64,000 bases of DNA from Hymenobacter sublimis. Its GTDB lineage: Bacteria > Bacteroidota > Bacteroidia > Cytophagales > Hymenobacteraceae. Each line of letters opens with the position of its first letter. The first letter of the stretch is position 1. The position numbers and the translations under genes were made by a program. This document shows, piece by piece, positions 13,125 to 22,212 of this stretch. Under the pieces are notes generated by a model that was given only the letters and a program-made list of their open reading frames with translations, made no database searches and had not been told where the DNA came from. The DNA is taken from contig NZ_CP095850.1 in assembly GCF_023101345.1 (NCBI RefSeq), positions 1 through 64,000 on the forward strand, read 5' to 3'.

Positions 13125-13730
13125 CTAAAGCTGCCGACGCACCCGGCTCAACGACTCAGGCGTCAGGCCCAGGTAGGAGGCAATAACGTGCTGGGGCACC
13201 CGCTGCACGATGGTGGGATACTTACGGAGAAAGTGCTGGTACTTTTCCGCTGCCGTCTGGCTCAGGGCAGCATTCACTCGCTCCTGCAGCACCACGTAGC
13301 GGCTCTGCATCAACAGCCGGAAGTAGCGCTCGAACACGGGGCACTGGGCGTATATGGTTTCCAGGTCGGCCTGGTCGAGTAGCAGCAACTGCGAATCTTC
13401 CAGCGCGTCGATGCTCATGGTGCTGGGCTGCTGCGTAAGCAGGCTGTAGAGGTCCGATATCCACCAGTCTTCGGGCGCAAATTGCAGCGTGTGCTCGTGC
13501 CCTTCCGCCGTGAGCGAGTAGCTGCGCAGGCAGCCCTGGGTTACGAAAGCGTAGTAGTTACACACCTCGCCGGACTGGAACAGGTGCTGGCGCTTGCGTA
13601 AAGCCAGCGGGCGCAGGTAGCCCCAGAACGTGGTAAAGTCGGCGTCGGTCAGCGGCACGCGCACTTGCAAGTGGGCCCGGAGCAGTTCGTAAGGGGGGCT
13701 ATGGTCGTGTGGGGGAGGGCTGACAGTCAC
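13125..13730 (-). CDS. Crp/Fnr-like transcriptional regulator
   Basis: A 201-residue protein with an N-terminal cyclic-nucleotide-binding beta-roll (GEVCNYYAFVTQGCLRSYSL near residue 52) and a short C-terminal HTH ending PQHVIASYLGLTPESLSRVR. This compact form is common in Bacteroidota, where the ligand is often unknown. The Arg-Ala pair used by true Crp to hold cAMP is not evident. It converges with the AraC gene and lies beside a miniature element at 13761. Confidence 0.8.
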   Translation of the reverse strand: MTVSPPPHDHSPPYELLRAHLQVRVPLTDADFTTFWGYLRPLALRKRQHLFQSGEVCNYYAFVTQGCLRSYSLTAEGHEHTLQFAPEDWWISDLYSLLTQQPSTMSIDALEDSQLLLLDQADLETIYAQCPVFERYFRLLMQSRYVVLQERVNAALSQTAAEKYQHFLRKYPTIVQRVPQHVIASYLGLTPESLSRVRRQL

Positions 13731-13760
13731 GGTTCGTGAATCTTGGCTGAACTGGTGGAA

Positions 13761-13853
13761 AGCATCAAAAAGTGTGGGGCACCTCTACAGTGTAGGTGAC
13801 CCAAAGGAAGATGCAGTAACCCGTTGATGAGGTGCCCCACACTTTTTGATGCT
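13761..13853. mobile_element. Miniature inverted-repeat element, left of the hip cassette
   Basis: A 25-bp perfect inverted repeat, AGCATCAAAAAGTGTGGGGC plus ACCTC (13761-13785) with 13829-13853, encloses 43 bp with no coding capacity. A diverged relative lies at 20651-20755, at the other side of hipB-hipA-STAND. Either both are the same kind of miniature element or they are leftovers of a unit that carried the cassette. Confidence 0.65.
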
Positions 13854-13913
13854 CTCTCCCTATCGGTAAACGGATCCTCAGGCAAGTTGCTATGCATTTG
13901 CTGTATCATTCAT

Positions 13914-13994
13914 CTGACCTTTAAAGCCAACGATGTACTGAGTGCGGCAGTGAACGCGGGCCTGTTGGCCCAAACCAATATTGATTACCGGTAG
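13914..13994 (+). pseudogene. Possible gene tail between element and hipB
   Basis: A 26-codon open stretch ends in TAG (FKANDVLSAAVNAGLLAQT in the middle) and looks protein-like. It lacks a start and abuts the miniature element. It may be the 3' end of a gene cut by the insertion. The remaining 13995-14085 holds nothing I can name. Confidence 0.2.
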
Positions 13995-14085
13995 GCATTA
14001 TGCTAATACAAACATCGAGCTGGCTAGCTAATGGCATGAATACAGGGTTCTACTGCTACTAGGGCAAAATGATTAGCTATATCAT

Positions 14086-14144
14086 TGTTGTATAAGCGCA
14101 ACAAATTGGCTATATTCCCCCATATTTGTTGCGCTTATACAACA
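14086..14144. promoter_or_regulatory. hipB operator: 21-bp perfect inverted repeat
   Basis: TGTTGTATAAGCGCAACAAA (plus T; 14086-14106) and its exact reverse complement at 14124-14144 are separated by 17 bp. Each arm is itself a partial palindrome (GTTG...CAAC), as expected for two HipB dimer sites. The right arm ends on the A of the hipB start codon, so bound repressor would cover the promoter and start. Confidence 0.75.
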
Positions 14145-14479
14145 TGAATTGGTACTCACTCTCAGATTTAGCCATCCTACGCGAACTCGGTAGCAGCCTG
14201 CGGCAGATGCGCGTTAACCGCAACCAATCCCAGCAGTCCGTGGCGGATTCCGCCGGCATTGACCGGGCCACCCTGAGCCAAGTAGAACACGGCCGGCCGA
14301 CGTCATTGCTTACGTTCATTCAACTGCTGCGCACGCTGGAGCATCTAGAGCTGCTGGAGCCCCTGGTGACCAAAGCGGAAGTTAATCCGGTCACCTTGGC
14401 CCGGCTGACGCAGAAACAGCGCCGCAACGCCTACCCCACTGCTCCTGACTCCACTACTCCCCCGCCTGCTGAATGGTAG
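14144..14479 (+). CDS. hipB: HipB-like antitoxin (XRE HTH)
   Basis: A 111-residue XRE-type DNA-binding protein. The HTH spans about residues 12-65, with LGSSLRQMRVNRNQSQQSVA and ATLSQVEHGRPTS. HipB proteins bind and inhibit the HipA kinase and repress the operon. ATG 14144 is chosen over an upstream TTG because it follows the operator directly. The Pro/Thr-rich tail may be the kinase-binding or protease-sensitive part (inference). Its TAG overlaps the hipA start (ATGGTAG), so translation is coupled. Confidence 0.85.
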   Translation: MNWYSLSDLAILRELGSSLRQMRVNRNQSQQSVADSAGIDRATLSQVEHGRPTSLLTFIQLLRTLEHLELLEPLVTKAEVNPVTLARLTQKQRRNAYPTAPDSTTPPPAEW

Positions 14480-15765
14480 AACTCGCCGTTGTCCGTCTCT
14501 GGGGTAAGCCTGTGGGCGCCGTCCGTTGGGATGCTGGCCGCGCGCTGGCCACGTTTGCCTACGACCCCGACTTTATCCGGTCGGGCCTGAATGTGGCCCC
14601 GCTGCTCATGCCGCTGCCCGCGCGCGCCGATCAGGTATACTCGTTTCCGCAACTCAACCCGGACACCTACCACGGGCTGCCGGGCCTGCTGGCCGATGCC
14701 CTGCCCGACCGGTTCGGCAACCAACTCATTGACGCCTGGCTGGCCACGCAGGGTCGCGCCCCGGCCGATTTCTCGCCGGTGGAGCGCCTGTGCTACATTG
14801 CCAACAGGGGCATGGGCGCCCTGGAGTTTGAACCGCGCGTGGGCAATGTGTCTGGGGCAGGGGCGGAATCCCTGGAAATTGCGGCCCTCGTCGATCTGGC
14901 CCAGCAGGTGGTGGGCCAGCGCGAAGCCTTCCACGTCAAGATGGGCGACGACGCCGAAGGGCTGGCGGCCCTGTTGGCCGTGGGCACTTCGGCCGGCGGC
15001 GCCCGTCCCAAGGCCATCATCGCCTTCAACGAGGACACGCGGGAAGTACGCTCCGGCCAAGTGACGGCGCCCCCCGGCTTTGGCTACTGGCTCCTTAAGC
15101 TGGACGGGGTGCAAGACCGGGCTCTGGGCGACCCGCAGGACTTTGGCCGGCTGGAGTACGCTTACTACCGCATGGCCGTGGCCAGCGGACTGGACATGAT
15201 GGAGTGCCGCCTCTACGAGGAGGGCCCGCGGGCACACTTCATGACTCGGCGATTCGACCGCACGGCCGCGGGCGAAAAACTCCACGCCCAGACGCTGTGC
15301 GCGCTGGCCCACTACGATTACAACCAGCCCGCCGCCTATTCCTACGAACAGGCGTTCCAGGTGATGCGCCAGCTACGCCTGCCCTACACGGCGGCCGAGC
15401 AGTTTTACCGGCGCATGGTGTTCAACGTGGTGGCCCGCAACCAGGACGATCACACCAAGAACATCTCCTTTCTGATGGATGCCACCGGGCAGTGGCGGCT
15501 CGCGCCCGCCTACGACGTGGCCTACGCCTACCAGCCGGGGAACCGTTGGACCAACCAGCACCAGATGGCCCTCAACGGCAAGCGCGACGGCTTCACGCGG
15601 GAGGACCTGCGGGCGGTAGCCCGGGAAATGAACATCAAACGGGCGGACGATTTGGTTGATGAGGTCGTGGCGCAGGTAACACGCTGGCCCGAGTTTGCCG
15701 CGGAAGCGGGCGTAAACGACGCGCGCACCGCGGCAATCGCCGCGGCCCACCGGCTGCTGCAATAG
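14473..15765 (+). CDS. hipA: HipA-like Ser/Thr kinase toxin
   Basis: A 430-residue full-length HipA. The N-terminal HipA_N domain includes GLPGLLADALPDRFGN (about 68-83). A glycine-rich loop GTSAGGARPK spans 171-180, a conserved lysine K209 lies in LLKLDG, the catalytic loop NQDDHTKN spans 323-330, and the metal-binding D348 lies in LAPAYDV. Key residues are intact, so it should phosphorylate a target; E. coli HipA acts on glutamyl-tRNA synthetase, and the target here is unknown. The STAND gene starts 27 bp after its stop, so hipB, hipA and STAND form one operon. Confidence 0.9.
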   Translation: MVELAVVRLWGKPVGAVRWDAGRALATFAYDPDFIRSGLNVAPLLMPLPARADQVYSFPQLNPDTYHGLPGLLADALPDRFGNQLIDAWLATQGRAPADFSPVERLCYIANRGMGALEFEPRVGNVSGAGAESLEIAALVDLAQQVVGQREAFHVKMGDDAEGLAALLAVGTSAGGARPKAIIAFNEDTREVRSGQVTAPPGFGYWLLKLDGVQDRALGDPQDFGRLEYAYYRMAVASGLDMMECRLYEEGPRAHFMTRRFDRTAAGEKLHAQTLCALAHYDYNQPAAYSYEQAFQVMRQLRLPYTAAEQFYRRMVFNVVARNQDDHTKNISFLMDATGQWRLAPAYDVAYAYQPGNRWTNQHQMALNGKRDGFTREDLRAVAREMNIKRADDLVDEVVAQVTRWPEFAAEAGVNDARTAAIAAAHRLLQ

Positions 15766-15792
15766 CCGCCGTTAATTACTTGACCGACTATT

Positions 15793-18700
15793 ATGAGTGG
15801 AAGAGCTACTTTTTCCGGAACATCCTTTCAATCCGAAGTTGCGGCCTGTATCGCGGGGTTATTGCTGACGGAGCGTCCCCTATCGCGGCTGGGGGGACGC
15901 CTGCCCGGGACGCCGCAAAAGATCTACGCCGAAATTCCCGCCGGCGGTGTTGATGACATTGTGGTCGATACCGACTTAGGCCAAACCTACATCCAGGCCA
16001 AAAACACCGTTCCGCTTTCGGATAATGCCACAGGCGAATTAGCCTCCGTGGCGGCGCAGTTCGTGCGCCAGTTCCGGGCCGGGGTGCTGGAAAACGGCAC
16101 CCGGCGCCCGCTGGTGCCGGCCCGGGACCGGTTAGTACTGGCCGTCAGCACGGGAGCCACCGGGACAATTAAGGAGCATCTGCAGGAAGTGCTGGACCGC
16201 AACCGCACGGGGGCTGCGACGGGCTTGCCTGCTAATCAGCAGCATGCCCTGGACGTGTTCACCGGGCTATTGGATGCAGCGTGGCTTGCAGAAGCCGGGA
16301 CGGCTATTACGGCTGCGCAGCAGCAGGCGCTGCTGGCCGTGTGCTCGGTAATCGTGGTGGGCAGTCCCCAGCACCAACTGGTTACGGAGGCCCTGCTGAG
16401 TATTGTGGCCCCCGGGTTGGAAGACACCCTGCTTATTCTACTAGACCATTGGGCACACCAGGCGGCCCGGCAGGGAACCGGCGGTGACGCGGCCGCCATT
16501 CGGCTGGCCTTACGTGGCCGGATTCAGCTGACGGAACCGCCAAGTTTCCGCCAGGACATAGCGCGGCTTCACACGTATAGCGCCGCCACGCTGGCAGAAT
16601 TGGCGCGTTTCACAACCATTGACGTAGTGGAAGGCACGATTACGGTTTCCCGGCCCGTCGTCAACGATGTGGTGGATGCTGCCCTGGGTGGTTCGCTGGC
16701 CATCACGGGCGAACCGGGGGCGGGTAAATCCGCCATCCTGCACACAGCGGCCAGCATTCTTGGCCAGCAACACCCGGTATTCTGTTTCAAAGTTGAAAAC
16801 GGTCCGGGTACGCTCGACGAGCTGCGCCGGGAGATTGGTCTAGAGCATCCCCTGCTGGAGGTACTCCGGCAAGTACCGGGCGACCGCCCGGCTTTCGTGC
16901 TGCTCGATGCTCTGGACGCATCCCGGGGCAATCAGGCAGAAACCACGTACAAAAAGCTGCTGCGGGAGGTGGCCGCCCTGCCCGGCTGGCACGTGGTGGC
17001 CTCGGTGCGCACGTTTGATTTGCGCGTGGGCAAGGAGTGGCAGCAACTGTTCCACGGCCTGCCCCCGATGCCGCAGCACGCGGACCGAAGCTTTGGCCGG
17101 GTGCGCCACCTGCACATCGGGCTGCTGGACGCCGGGGAACGGGCGGATCTGGCCCGCCAGTCGCCCAGCCTGCACACGGCCCTCGCTGCCGGTGGACCCA
17201 AGATGGAGGCGCTGGCGTTGAACCCGTTCAACCTGGCCTTGCTGGCCGACTTGCTGCGGGGCGGCACTCCGCCCGAATCGTTGGCGGGCGTGAGCACCCA
17301 GGGGCAGCTGCTGGATCGGTACTGGCAAGAGCGGGTAGGTGACTCAACCCCGGTGATTGTGGGCCTTACCCGGCTGGTGGAGCAGATGCTCGACGCCAAG
17401 GCCCTGACCATTGCGCAGGGCCGCATTGACGCGGCTACGGGCACGGCGGTGGATGAAATGCAGGAAAACGGCGTGCTGCTGCTGGAACAACCCCGCCGGG
17501 TGCTGGGCTTCCGGCACCACGTGCTGTTCGACTATGCCGTCGCCTGCCTGGCCCTGTTGCCCGACGTGGCCAGCGCCCGGGCGCAGTTGGTCAAGAGCAA
17601 AGGAGCGGGGTTGCTGCTGGCGCCCTCGCTCAACTACTGGATCGACGGCCTCAAGCACAACAGCGGCCTGTCCACTGACGAATTCTGGGGGTTTGTTGGG
17701 ACGCTGGTGGCCGATGAGGGCATGGATCCCATTGTGCGGGTGGAAGTCGCCCGCCTGTCCGTGGAAACGGTACAAGCGGACGAAGATCTGATGGGTCTGG
17801 TGCGAGTCTTCAACCAGGGAGACGCCGCGGCCACCCGCAGCTTGCGGCATTTTGTGGTAGCCCTGGTGATCAAAGCCCAACGCCACCAGCCTTTCCAGGC
17901 CGGACCCTGGGCACGGGTGGTGGCTGAACTACGTGCCGGCGCCGACCAACTGGGCCTGCACCAAACGCTCGTGGAAACCCTTCTGGACGGCAACCCGACC
18001 GCGGATGCCCTACCCTTGCTGAGCCAGGCGGCGCGTCAAGTACTGACTAGCGTGATGGCCGCTGCCTTCCTGAACCGCTGGCAGGTGCGTTCCGCCATTG
18101 CCAGCGTGGTGCGTACCTACGGCACTAATCCGGCTGCGTCGCGGCAGCTGCTGACCCAACTGCTGGAACCAGAACGCTTCCGCCGGTATGGACACGTGGA
18201 AATCCCGGCGCTGGCCGAGCACCTGGATTTGCTCGCGGGCCAGGATGAGGCGCTGGCGGTGCAGTTGGTGTACTGCGTTTTCGGGTCGCATGAGTTTCGC
18301 CATGACCAGGCCACGCCCATGGTATCAAGCTTTATCCTGGGAATGCAATCCAATGCGGCCCAGGATTTTGAGCTGGCCCGGCATAAGGTGGAGAAGCATT
18401 TTGCCGCGTTACTGGCCGCCTACCCCCGCACGGCCGTGCGGGTGCTGGCTGCCGCCTTGCGCGGGGCCCGTGACCGGAAGGAATGGTCCTCGCCAGAGCC
18501 GCGGGTTGAAAACCTGACCGTCGGCACTACTTCGTACCGCTTTGAGGACGATAGCAGCGCGTATTGGGCGCATGATCTGGAGACAAGCCGCAGCGATGAC
18601 CACGCGGAAATGTACCAGCGGTTTCTGCAGTGGATTCCCGGCGTGCAAGACCCGGCTCTGCTGGCGGATATGCCGGGCCTGCTGCTAGAGCACACCAGCG

Positions 18701-20532
18701 CCGCTATTGTGTGGCGGACGCTCTTTGAAGCAGGCGCCCGGCAGCCCCAGTTGCTCGGCCGCCAACTGTGGGCGGCCGCGTCCAGCCCCCTGGTGCTGCA
18801 GTGCCAGAGCACGCGCAAAAGTACCATTGAACTGCTGCAGGTACTTTACCCACTGGTGCCTGCGGAAGCCCGGCAGGAGGCGGAACGGGCCTGGCTGGCC
18901 TGGGGCTTTGCTGATTTTACCGAACCTGAATGGATGCGCACCTCCGTCATTGGCACCGTGCTGAAGACGCTGGGCGCGCAGCAACTAGCCACCGACGAAG
19001 CGCGTGAGTTTTTGCAGGTAGCCATAGCAAGCGGCGAGGCGCTGGTCAACAGCAAGCCGCTGGAAATCCACAGCACGTTCATTGAGAGGGAACCCTTTGA
19101 AGCAGAGAACAACGCTGGAACAGCTACTGCCGACTCGGTGCCGGGACTTGCCCGAGCGGTTCACCACACGCAGCAGGCCGTCAGAGCAGCCCCCACCGAA
19201 GAAATCCTCCGCCACCTGCAGGAAGCGCTGCTGGCCTTCGACGCCGCCGTGTCCCCAGCCGGTGCTCTGCCCGAAGCGGAAGCCGCTGCCGTGCTGTCTG
19301 AAGGACTGGGCGTGCTGCTGGCTTACGCACCGGCATCTGCCACCAGCTACCCCGAGGCCCTCACGCGCCTGCTGGAGCTAACCCATCATCCGGAGCCGTT
19401 CACCGGACCGGATACGGAGGAAGACTTTGCTCAGTCCGTACCATGGGGCTACTCTGCCGCCCGGATAGAGGCCGCCAAAGCCCTGGCCCATCTGCTAGAA
19501 ATCTCCTCTCTGTGGCCGCTGATACAAGACCGGGTGGAGGAGTTGCTGCTGCGCGACCCGCATCCGACCGTGCGCTTTGTGTTGATCACCGCGCTCTACA
19601 AGCTGAGCTGGCACAACACCGAGGCCACTTGGGAACTGGCCGAAAAGTTTGCGGAGCAGGAGATCAATCCCCAGGTTATTAACCACGCTACCGCTGTTCT
19701 CCGCAACCTGGCGCACGAGGATGCAGCCCGCTTGGAACCGCTTCTGCTGAAACTACTGACGAAAGCAAGTGGCCCCGGCGAGGGAAGCAGGATAATGGTG
19801 GAGCTGCTGCTGCGCCTGGCGCTGGAACGACAACTGCCGGCATCCCAGGCACAGTTGCGGGAGTGGGTAAGCGCGTATTCCGCACACAAGAAGCAGCTAG
19901 GGAGCGTAATGGCGGTTTTACGGGTCTACTTGTCTATGGGCTACGACCGAGCGCAGGATCCACAAGAGGACGCCATTCGGCAACGGTCCCAGGTATTGAT
20001 GCAGGAACTGGTGGATGCAGTGGAGCCTGCAGTTCGGAATTGGACTTCCGATAACCACCAGCCCACCGAAGAAGAAGAAGAAGCGCACTGGATTTTCAAC
20101 GAACTGGCCGGCCAACTCTTTTACGCTATCGGCCATGACTTACCAGAGAACATCGGCACCCTAGAGGCGAAGCGCCAATGCCTGACGGAGTACGCGCCGT
20201 TTATTTCTCGGTTCGCCACTTTGGGCACGCCCGGTACGGTGCACCACATGCTCGACATCCTACTCAAGTTCGTAGCGGTTAACCCAACCCAATGCTTTGA
20301 CCTATTTGCTGAAGCGATGCTGCGCACAACCGGTGTGGCCAAGTACGAGTATGAATCGCAGGGAGCCAAACGCTTCGTGGAACTAGTTGAAGAGTATCTA
20401 GCTGATCACCGCGCCCTCTTTGCGAAAGAAGACCGCCGAACGAAGCTGATCGATTGCTTGGCAATTTTCTCCGATGCGGGCTGGCCCGAAGCCTGGCAGC
20501 TTTTCCAGCAGCTACCAGACCTATTCCGGTAA
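15793..20532 (+). CDS. Large STAND-type NTPase with N-terminal Cap4-like nuclease
   Basis: A 1579-residue protein. Residues 1-165 resemble the Cap4/Mrr-type endonuclease found on Avs and related defence proteins: E15, D54-D55 in GGVDDIVVD and Q68-x-K70 in YIQAKN form a PD-(D/E)xK-like site. An NTPase follows with Walker A GEPGAGKS (306-313), Walker B VLLDALDA (369-376) and a sensor-like VVASVRTFDL (401-410). The rest, about 900 residues, is alpha-helical and repeat-like, as in sensor regions of STAND proteins. By family logic the C-terminus would sense a phage product, the NTPase assemble and the nuclease cut DNA. No paper assignment is claimed. Confidence 0.75.
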   Translation: MSGRATFSGTSFQSEVAACIAGLLLTERPLSRLGGRLPGTPQKIYAEIPAGGVDDIVVDTDLGQTYIQAKNTVPLSDNATGELASVAAQFVRQFRAGVLENGTRRPLVPARDRLVLAVSTGATGTIKEHLQEVLDRNRTGAATGLPANQQHALDVFTGLLDAAWLAEAGTAITAAQQQALLAVCSVIVVGSPQHQLVTEALLSIVAPGLEDTLLILLDHWAHQAARQGTGGDAAAIRLALRGRIQLTEPPSFRQDIARLHTYSAATLAELARFTTIDVVEGTITVSRPVVNDVVDAALGGSLAITGEPGAGKSAILHTAASILGQQHPVFCFKVENGPGTLDELRREIGLEHPLLEVLRQVPGDRPAFVLLDALDASRGNQAETTYKKLLREVAALPGWHVVASVRTFDLRVGKEWQQLFHGLPPMPQHADRSFGRVRHLHIGLLDAGERADLARQSPSLHTALAAGGPKMEALALNPFNLALLADLLRGGTPPESLAGVSTQGQLLDRYWQERVGDSTPVIVGLTRLVEQMLDAKALTIAQGRIDAATGTAVDEMQENGVLLLEQPRRVLGFRHHVLFDYAVACLALLPDVASARAQLVKSKGAGLLLAPSLNYWIDGLKHNSGLSTDEFWGFVGTLVADEGMDPIVRVEVARLSVETVQADEDLMGLVRVFNQGDAAATRSLRHFVVALVIKAQRHQPFQAGPWARVVAELRAGADQLGLHQTLVETLLDGNPTADALPLLSQAARQVLTSVMAAAFLNRWQVRSAIASVVRTYGTNPAASRQLLTQLLEPERFRRYGHVEIPALAEHLDLLAGQDEALAVQLVYCVFGSHEFRHDQATPMVSSFILGMQSNAAQDFELARHKVEKHFAALLAAYPRTAVRVLAAALRGARDRKEWSSPEPRVENLTVGTTSYRFEDDSSAYWAHDLETSRSDDHAEMYQRFLQWIPGVQDPALLADMPGLLLEHTSAAIVWRTLFEAGARQPQLLGRQLWAAASSPLVLQCQSTRKSTIELLQVLYPLVPAEARQEAERAWLAWGFADFTEPEWMRTSVIGTVLKTLGAQQLATDEAREFLQVAIASGEALVNSKPLEIHSTFIEREPFEAENNAGTATADSVPGLARAVHHTQQAVRAAPTEEILRHLQEALLAFDAAVSPAGALPEAEAAAVLSEGLGVLLAYAPASATSYPEALTRLLELTHHPEPFTGPDTEEDFAQSVPWGYSAARIEAAKALAHLLEISSLWPLIQDRVEELLLRDPHPTVRFVLITALYKLSWHNTEATWELAEKFAEQEINPQVINHATAVLRNLAHEDAARLEPLLLKLLTKASGPGEGSRIMVELLLRLALERQLPASQAQLREWVSAYSAHKKQLGSVMAVLRVYLSMGYDRAQDPQEDAIRQRSQVLMQELVDAVEPAVRNWTSDNHQPTEEEEEAHWIFNELAGQLFYAIGHDLPENIGTLEAKRQCLTEYAPFISRFATLGTPGTVHHMLDILLKFVAVNPTQCFDLFAEAMLRTTGVAKYEYESQGAKRFVELVEEYLADHRALFAKEDRRTKLIDCLAIFSDAGWPEAWQLFQQLPDLFR

Positions 20533-20650
20533 ACCTGCGTGGCGGCCTAGACTACGGGGAGTAACCGCGCTGCCAAATCTGCCGTGACTTAGACCTGGTA
20601 AGCCGAGCCAGATCGTAGAGTTGCGCCCAGTAGCTTCCTTCTTGTTGAAG

Positions 20651-20755
20651 AGTATCAAAAAGTGTGGGGCCGTCCGATTGGGGGCTTAGCAACGGGTCGC
20701 GTTATTTCCGTTCAGGTTGGCTGAGAAGTAGGGCTGCCCCACACTTTTTTACGCT
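20651..20755. mobile_element. Miniature inverted-repeat element, right of the hip cassette
   Basis: Arms AGTATCAAAAAGTGTGGGGC (20651-20670) and 20736-20755 match with two mismatches and share AAAAAGTGTGGGGC with the arms at 13761. The 65 bp between them does not code. 20756-20863 shows nothing further. Confidence 0.6.
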
Positions 20756-20863
20756 CTCCTCATTGAACTGATTACTAGTTAGCATTTACGGCATTTCGGA
20801 TTCATCTGAGACTTATTTATTAAGTGCGTCGACAGCGGTTGCAGGGCCACTATCATGATCCAT

Positions 20864-22162
20864 TCAACTGTCTGGATATTCTTTCAGGGAGTAGTGTTTT
20901 ATCTGTGGACTTTTGAACCACCCAAGTTTGTCTAAATCATGCCTGAGGTGCATTTCCTCCTCTTCACCCAGAACCTTGATATCCTGCATGTAGCCAAATT
21001 TGAACTGCGTCAGCCAATTATTGGCGGCAATCAAGATTGATTTACTCGTCTGGTAGCCTTCAAACGAGGAGTATCCCTGCAAAGCCACTTCCAGCATTGT
21101 ATCAACCACTTCTGGCTTCATATCACTGCCATAGATAATGAAGGACACTAATAGGTCAGCAACCTTGCCGTGCCTTCTCGCCATGTACCAACCACTCTTG
21201 TGCTTATTCTCCTCGAATAGTCCGAAGAAGCCCTGCCCGATTATCCTTCTTTCGAACCTGGTTAACGAGAGTAATTCTTTGGCAAGGTCGAGCCTCAAAT
21301 CATTCACATCAACCAAGATTTCATTCCGCACAAACTCATCGACAAAGTAGCTGTACCGGTCGTGTTTCCTTTTCAAGATCACCTCTTCCCGCTTTTGATA
21401 AAAGTCCCAGGCGCCGTCAATGTCGAACCAAGCACCATTGTATTCTGAGGAAGAAAAGAGTTCTGGAAATTTCTTGTCATTTTCCAGGTACTTGGCCAGC
21501 AAATCGTATTCGGTTCCTGAAATCAGAATGGACGTTTTCTCTGCTGGATTACGGTTTTCTGCGCTGTATTTAAAGAATTGCTTCCCCGTATTATTGTCAA
21601 ATAAGTGCTCTTCGCCGGGTAGGATCAGCACATCCTTGTCAGTAAACACCCTTTCTCGTTCCTGCAGATAATTCACCAAATCAGGTATCGTGTCAAGCTC
21701 CTGCATAATGGCCTTGAAAGCCTCTTTATCTAGGACATGAACAAACTTTCCGGCTTTGGTCAACGAGCCCGACGGATAGAACTGCACACTCTCTCCCAGG
21801 TTGACTATTATCCGATGAATAGCAGTATAATCGGCTGGTATAACCTGCTCCTGCTCCCTGTCTGGGTGCTTAATAAACACCTCGTGCTTGCTCGCTAGCA
21901 GCTTTCTTTCAGCTCCGTATATCTGGCTGGCTGCTTTGTCAAGCGTTCTTCTGAAATACCGGTCGTACTGCCCCTTAAATTCGTAGTTTTTGACCGACAG
22001 AATCAGCAGTGTGTTTTTAAATAATATTAGCAGGTCAGCTATCTCCTTCTTATCGCCACGCTCATCTTTGGGGCCCGGATAACACCAGAATTTGAGCAAG
22101 GACGAGTAGGCCAGTTCGTTCACAAATTCTTCCCCTTGTAGGCCTTTGTCTTGCGCTTCCAT
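20864..22162 (-). CDS. Unknown protein with a PD-(D/E)xK-like nuclease N-terminus
   Basis: A 432-residue protein from ATG 22162 (14 codons inside the open frame). The first 70 residues fit a NERD/restriction-like fold: G10-E11-E12-F13, then D43 in EIADLLILF and S56-V-K58 in LLILSVKN, a D...SxK variant of the nuclease signature. The remaining 360 residues are charged and alpha-rich with no motif I know. It is the last gene of a minus-strand set with a small protein and a DnaB-like ATPase upstream. A DNA-processing or defence role is inference. Confidence 0.55.
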   Translation of the reverse strand: MEAQDKGLQGEEFVNELAYSSLLKFWCYPGPKDERGDKKEIADLLILFKNTLLILSVKNYEFKGQYDRYFRRTLDKAASQIYGAERKLLASKHEVFIKHPDREQEQVIPADYTAIHRIIVNLGESVQFYPSGSLTKAGKFVHVLDKEAFKAIMQELDTIPDLVNYLQERERVFTDKDVLILPGEEHLFDNNTGKQFFKYSAENRNPAEKTSILISGTEYDLLAKYLENDKKFPELFSSSEYNGAWFDIDGAWDFYQKREEVILKRKHDRYSYFVDEFVRNEILVDVNDLRLDLAKELLSLTRFERRIIGQGFFGLFEENKHKSGWYMARRHGKVADLLVSFIIYGSDMKPEVVDTMLEVALQGYSSFEGYQTSKSILIAANNWLTQFKFGYMQDIKVLGEEEEMHLRHDLDKLGWFKSPQIKHYSLKEYPDS

Positions 22163-22212
22163 ATGTGTAGTAGGTATCAGATTAAAAGGCTTTGGTAGTA
22201 GCAACTGATGCG

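Follow-up and report, generated by a model that had tools for sequence, protein, structure and literature searches.

Ligand sensing, DNA cutting, and an abortive outcome of infection are known from Avs and NLR proteins, and LmuA of the Lamassu system is a nuclease that forms a separate subunit. A plasmid-borne hipBA pair of Klebsiella michiganensis is reported to act as a plasmid stabilization system (PMC11487325). A HipA-like kinase also belongs to a defense system, HipAD/DS-6; there it is paired with a DUF3037/DUF1829 protein that does not resemble HipB, and not with HipB plus a nuclease of the STAND (signal transduction ATPase with numerous domains) class (PMC13092281). The PDC families of the PADLOC database are putative candidates found through guilt by embedding, and validation is pending for most of them (PMC12988326). 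Here, a hipBA pair directly followed by a large STAND gene was analyzed in the first 64,000 nucleotides of the 75,134-bp contig NZ_CP095850.1 of Hymenobacter sublimis, a stretch called the window throughout. The contig looks like a plasmid, judging from its genes for Rep3 and ParA; two integrases and a resolvase are encoded as well.

The hipB gene, hipA, and the large open reading frame (ORF) are collinear, with a 7-bp overlap between the first two and a 27-bp gap before the third. Reading of the ORFs confirmed these spacings and the positions of the three genes, as given in an initial annotation of this DNA (Table 1). That annotation also took the three genes for one system. We consider it likely, with a probability of roughly 85%, that two plasmid-borne modules, each independent of the other, have come to be adjacent, and that their co-transcription stems from a local and probably recent accident of module shuffling and not from a conserved system. 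A false positive would thereby be removed, as the apparent combined toxin-nuclease immune operon would consist of abutting modules.

Table 1. Features of the hipBA and STAND genes and their surroundings (window coordinates)
Feature	Position	Strand	Basis or remark
MITE (miniature inverted-repeat transposable element)-like hairpin left of hipB, 28-nt arms, terminal repeat of ISKra4 family	13758..13856		Motif match
hipBA operator (predicted), perfect 21-bp inverted repeat	14086..14144		12 hipBA relatives keep the arms, with changes in pairs
hipB, antitoxin/repressor	14144..14479	+	HTH_3 2.5e-7; ATG at operator end; TTG at 14126 is an alternative start
hipA, Ser/Thr kinase toxin, 430 aa, intact	14473..15765	+	HipA_C 3.1e-52, Couple_hipA 1.2e-15
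Gap of 27 bp between hipA and the STAND gene	15766..15792	+	Contains the left end (15769) of the block shared with H. latericoloratus
PDC-M54A-type STAND nuclease gene, 1579 aa	15793..20532	+	PADLOC profile, alignment, structure models
Second MITE-like hairpin, same ISKra4 terminal repeat	20648..20757 (ends approximate)		H. latericoloratus has a diverged copy in the corresponding position
Gene of 446 aa convergent to the STAND gene, no family match	20864..22204	-	Profile searches; H. latericoloratus comparison

Evidence for two modules was found on both sides of the junction. Among the matches listed, the closest relative of the STAND gene with a readable context is a 95% identical gene of Hymenobacter latericoloratus, and no HipA or HipB match was found in the 8 kb upstream of it. 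The DNA shared by the window and H. latericoloratus extends from 15,769 to 21,829 at 94.7% identity, beginning 4 bp past the hipA stop codon. In the genome taken to be that of H. latericoloratus (G437), a HipA of 59% identity is encoded on contig C11 and the STAND gene on contig C12. Relatives of the large protein, some of them remote, were present in 18 fetched loci, which include two pairs that are identical or nearly so. Seven HipA/HipB queries found neither protein in these loci; as a positive control, the window was found by five of the seven. On the other side of the junction, HipA matches were seen in 92 of 204 genomes of the family, and 13 genomes besides the own genome encode a HipA with at least 75% identity over at least 400 residues. 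Twelve of these 13 loci were fetched and compared with window positions 13,600 to 21,900. Their DNA matched only 14,082 to 15,754 of this segment, and no STAND relative (E 1e-3) was detected in any of the 12, with 8.0 to 10.3 kb of sequence downstream of hipA in 11 loci and 1.3 kb in L080. As far as contexts are readable, hipBA and the STAND gene are neighbors in this window alone, which is what the initial annotation expected of an accidental link. On the basis of the 95% identical relative, the 12 hipBA loci, and the 18 STAND loci, we rejected one conserved hipBA-STAND system.

The hipBA module is a type II toxin-antitoxin pair of the ordinary kind. Pfam upheld the proposed identities of both proteins: a gene for a helix-turn-helix (HTH) antitoxin is upstream of, and overlaps, the gene for a HipA kinase with the N-terminal and C-terminal HipA domains. 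HipB also matched the couple_hipB subfamily (TIGR03070) at 3.8e-7, under the cut-off of that model. The motifs GTSAGGARPK, NQDDHTKN, and LAPAYDV are presumably the kinase loops of this HipA. The ratio of nonsynonymous to synonymous substitution rates (dN/dS) was 0.12 for hipA (window against copy L073 of genome G427) and 0.10 for hipB, each from a single sequence pair; on these ratios, both genes are under purifying selection. Like the hipBA of K. michiganensis (PMC11487325), this one consists of two genes and is carried by a plasmid-like molecule. Unlike it, the window copy comes from Bacteroidota, its role is predicted, and it is followed by a STAND gene, an arrangement that none of the other loci checked shows. 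The window HipA also differs from the kinase of HipAD/DS-6 in being of the HipBA kind. As a side observation, the HipA matches in L084 (genome G506) and in genome G472 are split into residues 1–32 and 23–429, which suggests that these copies carry a frameshift or were misassembled.

The inverted repeat upstream of hipB, which had been read as an operator, is real. Its arms (14,086–14,106 and 14,124–14,144) are 21 nt each and 100% complementary, they are separated by a 17-nt spacer, and the last base of the right arm is the A of the hipB ATG. The palindrome is kept in the 12 hipBA relatives, with 17 to 21 of 21 positions complementary, compared to 21 of 21 in the window. Both arms are altered symmetrically in relatives such as L080 and L081, and the spacer contains TATATTCC in the window vs TATATTTG in eight of the 12 relatives. 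The co-varying arms support a palindromic self-operator at the hipBA promoter, with HipB as the predicted ligand. Since the palindrome and its paired changes are found in hipBA relatives, the operator belongs to hipBA and not to a three-gene unit.

The large protein matched the PADLOC profile PDC-M54A (PDLC04702), the subunit A profile of PDC-M54, over its full length with 1125.6 bits, residues 2–1579 aligning with profile positions 13–1621 of 1621. By this match, the STAND gene is a member of a candidate defense family that is already catalogued, and the view that no such system had been described does not hold for this part of the locus. A literature search by family name found no paper on PDC-M54A. 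A protein search found 150 homologs, 120 of which were listed, in Bacteroidota, rhizobia, and others, and conservation was read from an alignment of the window protein with 110 of them (111 sequences). The proposed nuclease residues were largely borne out: D54, Q68, and K70 are present in 111 of 111 and D55 in 110. E15 was rejected as a catalytic residue because only 47 of the 111 sequences have E at this position; E47 (107/111) is a better candidate for the acidic active-site residue. The Walker A (306–313) and Walker B (369–376) motifs lie where they had been placed, with G306, G309, G311, K312, D372, and D375 invariant in all 111. Pfam agreed with an ATPase through weak AAA matches, of which AAA_22 (1.5e-4) is under the curated cut-off.

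Structure models divide the protein into a PD-(D/E)xK nuclease (residues 1–246), a NACHT ATPase with a winged helix (about 250–636), and a helical solenoid (about 640–1579), the last corresponding to the long helical C-terminus noted before. The middle part folds like a NACHT/NLR-type STAND ATPase, in nucleotide-binding, helical, and winged-helix parts, and it has both Walker motifs. Together with the conservation, the models show the predicted domain order, and they support an Avs-like architecture for this nuclease-NACHT-solenoid protein: an effector nuclease, then a STAND ATPase, then a helical-repeat sensor. The Avs-like reading of the initial annotation stands at the level of architecture. 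A domain model is now available for PDC-M54A, namely an LmuA/Cap4-like nuclease, a NACHT ATPase, and a helical sensor; in contrast to LmuA, the nuclease is fused to a NACHT ATPase here.

The Avs (AVAST) STAND nucleases Avs3, Avs4, and Avs5 are among the closest known systems. No Avs family was among the PADLOC matches of the large protein at E values up to 1, a search in which the HMMER filters drop most weak matches, and Avs4 gave only a weak PDB sequence match (8dgf, E 0.027). Among proteins of solved structure, the best sequence match was to an "AAA family ATPase" of 1523 residues (PDB 9n00/9n01/9yix, E 1.6e-16). This match is weak and in pieces. It covers the ATPase, a HEAT-like stretch, and the DD...QxK stretch, the last of which scores just 0.2 bits by itself, and no paper was found for these entries by entry code. 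The dN/dS of the STAND gene was 0.17 in a single sequence pair, by which it is under purifying selection, and this argues against decay. The database copy of the window protein (P0001) is 1556 residues long, 23 fewer than our reading, presumably through a later start. The ATG at 15,793 is favored as the start because G3, G9, and F12 are conserved (86–88% of 111).

The two modules would work in different ways. HipB would repress its own promoter through the palindromic operator and hold the HipA kinase. Upon loss of HipB, free HipA would bring growth to a halt by phosphorylating a target, for example an aminoacyl-tRNA synthetase. A plasmid hipBA of this sort most likely serves maintenance, as is reported for K. 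michiganensis (PMC11487325). In the large protein, the C-terminal solenoid would recognize a ligand, most likely a phage protein, judging from Avs and NLR proteins. The NACHT domain would then assemble in an ATP-driven manner and switch on the N-terminal PD-(D/E)xK nuclease, and cutting of DNA by the activated nuclease would lead to abortive infection, as in those proteins. Since the gap is only 27 bp and no promoter was recognized in the preceding 500 bp, the STAND gene is likely read from the hipBA transcript in this plasmid.

This likely shared transcription could be taken as the sign of one functional three-gene system, in which HipB sets the levels of HipA and the STAND nuclease, and infection frees two growth-stopping branches together. 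The collinear genes with their overlap and short gap, the single operator upstream, and the lack of a recognized Bacteroidota-type promoter within 500 bp upstream of the STAND gene would all agree with it. However, this order occurs in one genome only, being absent from the 95% identical relative and from all hipBA and STAND loci surveyed, and we regard such a system as very unlikely. The promoter scan was simple and insensitive, and it carries little weight because it also missed the hipBA promoter in the window. Some points do weigh against two independent modules. With its tight spacing and no visible promoter, the junction has the look of a real operon, and the functions of both modules are predictions from sequence. 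Also, context was readable for only one relative of the large protein above 50% identity; the contexts outside the survey are those of 59 listed relatives (P0003–P0061, 37–54% identity) and of P0002 (91%, on a 10.7-kb contig), and among P0002–P0061 there may be a subclade with hipBA beside the STAND gene. A different question is what the nuclease acts on. It could be directed at other plasmids or foreign DNA, or serve plasmid competition, instead of sensing phage proteins. This would suit a gene on a plasmid-like contig with relatives on 14 plasmid records (Rhizobium, Agrobacterium, Sinorhizobium, Streptomyces, and others), and we consider it quite unlikely.

The STAND gene could also be the orphaned half of a two-gene PDC-M54 system (A and B), either inactive or with an unrecognized partner. 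In three loci on Sphingobium and Rhizobium plasmids (L105–L107), the last 4 bp of the A gene overlap a downstream gene whose product matches PDC-M54B (E 5.6e-140 to 1.2e-188); an adjacent subunit B, as expected from the A/B names and these loci, was not found in the window. Tblastn with the three B proteins of these loci gave nothing credible in the 64-kb window (best E 2.4) and no B relative in H. latericoloratus or elsewhere among L002, L069–L072, and L108–L111. Two of the four PADLOC B models were also run genome-wide on the own genome (G000), G437, and G110, and B was found in none of the three with either model, in a search that could miss a divergent B. Of the control genomes, one was positive with PDLC04706 but none with PDLC04703, which falls short of establishing absence strictly. 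The dN/dS of 0.17 and the fully conserved active-site residues speak against an inactive remnant, and the limited sensitivity of the B search to divergent partners also counts against this reading. We consider an orphaned half unlikely and gave it a lower weight because all three Bacteroidota genomes carry A without a recognized B. For the same reason PDC-M54A may act alone, and the window gene may do so or work with an unrecognized partner. These data suggest that some PDC-M54A members stand without a B partner and, therefore, that single-gene tests are worthwhile. In L108, a gene for a Shedu nuclease is directly upstream of the PDC-M54A relative, instead of the B arrangement.

The neighbors of hipBA in other Hymenobacter were also compared. 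Upstream of hipBA, a gene of 618–626 codons was found in L078 and in four near-identical loci (L073, L074, L076, and L077); the L073 copy, the only one scanned, matched DUF4209 and PDC-S39. In L075 (G483, Hymenobacter sp. DG01), the same slot encodes a Cap4-nuclease protein of 1249 residues with no Walker A motif. Eight of the 12 loci have a gene for a 416–467-residue protein upstream of hipBA, and the two copies scanned gave weak matches to a type II restriction model (E 5.4e-6 and 8.8e-6). No such slot was recognized in L080 or L082–L084. Mercury and arsenic genes lie downstream of hipBA in APR13 and DG01. It is conceivable, if improbable, that exchangeable defense genes dock at hipBA in Hymenobacter plasmids, just upstream (Cap4-nuclease or DUF4209/PDC-S39) or just downstream (PDC-M54A), with the STAND nuclease here under HipB control. 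Depletion of HipB would then raise the kinase toxin and the nuclease sensor together, and if the slot trades defense genes, it would be worthwhile to scan plasmid addiction modules as possible markers for defense cargo. The DUF4209/PDC-S39 module is counted in five loci, of which four are nearly identical, and the independent loci are too few for a hotspot claim.

Signs of mobility surround the two modules. In the own genome, the exact hairpin motif has just two sites (four arms), which flank the hipBA-STAND stretch; across the genus, it is present in 49 of 120 genomes. Four full insertion sequences of the ISKra4 family, 2.85–2.88 kb long, were found in other Hymenobacter, and the transposase of the element in L113, the single copy scanned, matched NF033572 (ISKra4) with 326.5 bits against a cut-off of 205. 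A composite of hipBA and the STAND gene bounded by the MITE-like hairpins was rejected as the moving unit by the ends of the block shared with H. latericoloratus: since the block starts inside the hairpin pair and continues past the right hairpin, the shared unit does not run from hairpin to hairpin. Synonymous divergence from H. latericoloratus was 0.46 in STAND codons 1–165 (15,793–16,287) vs 0.08–0.20 beyond. This suggests a mosaic gene whose 5' end came from another donor, which fits shuffling and comes from one comparison. The C-terminal part of the 446-residue convergent gene product lies inside the shared block, and the ORF in H. latericoloratus is shorter at the N-terminus (339 residues). 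By eye, the first 110 residues of the window product look nuclease-like.
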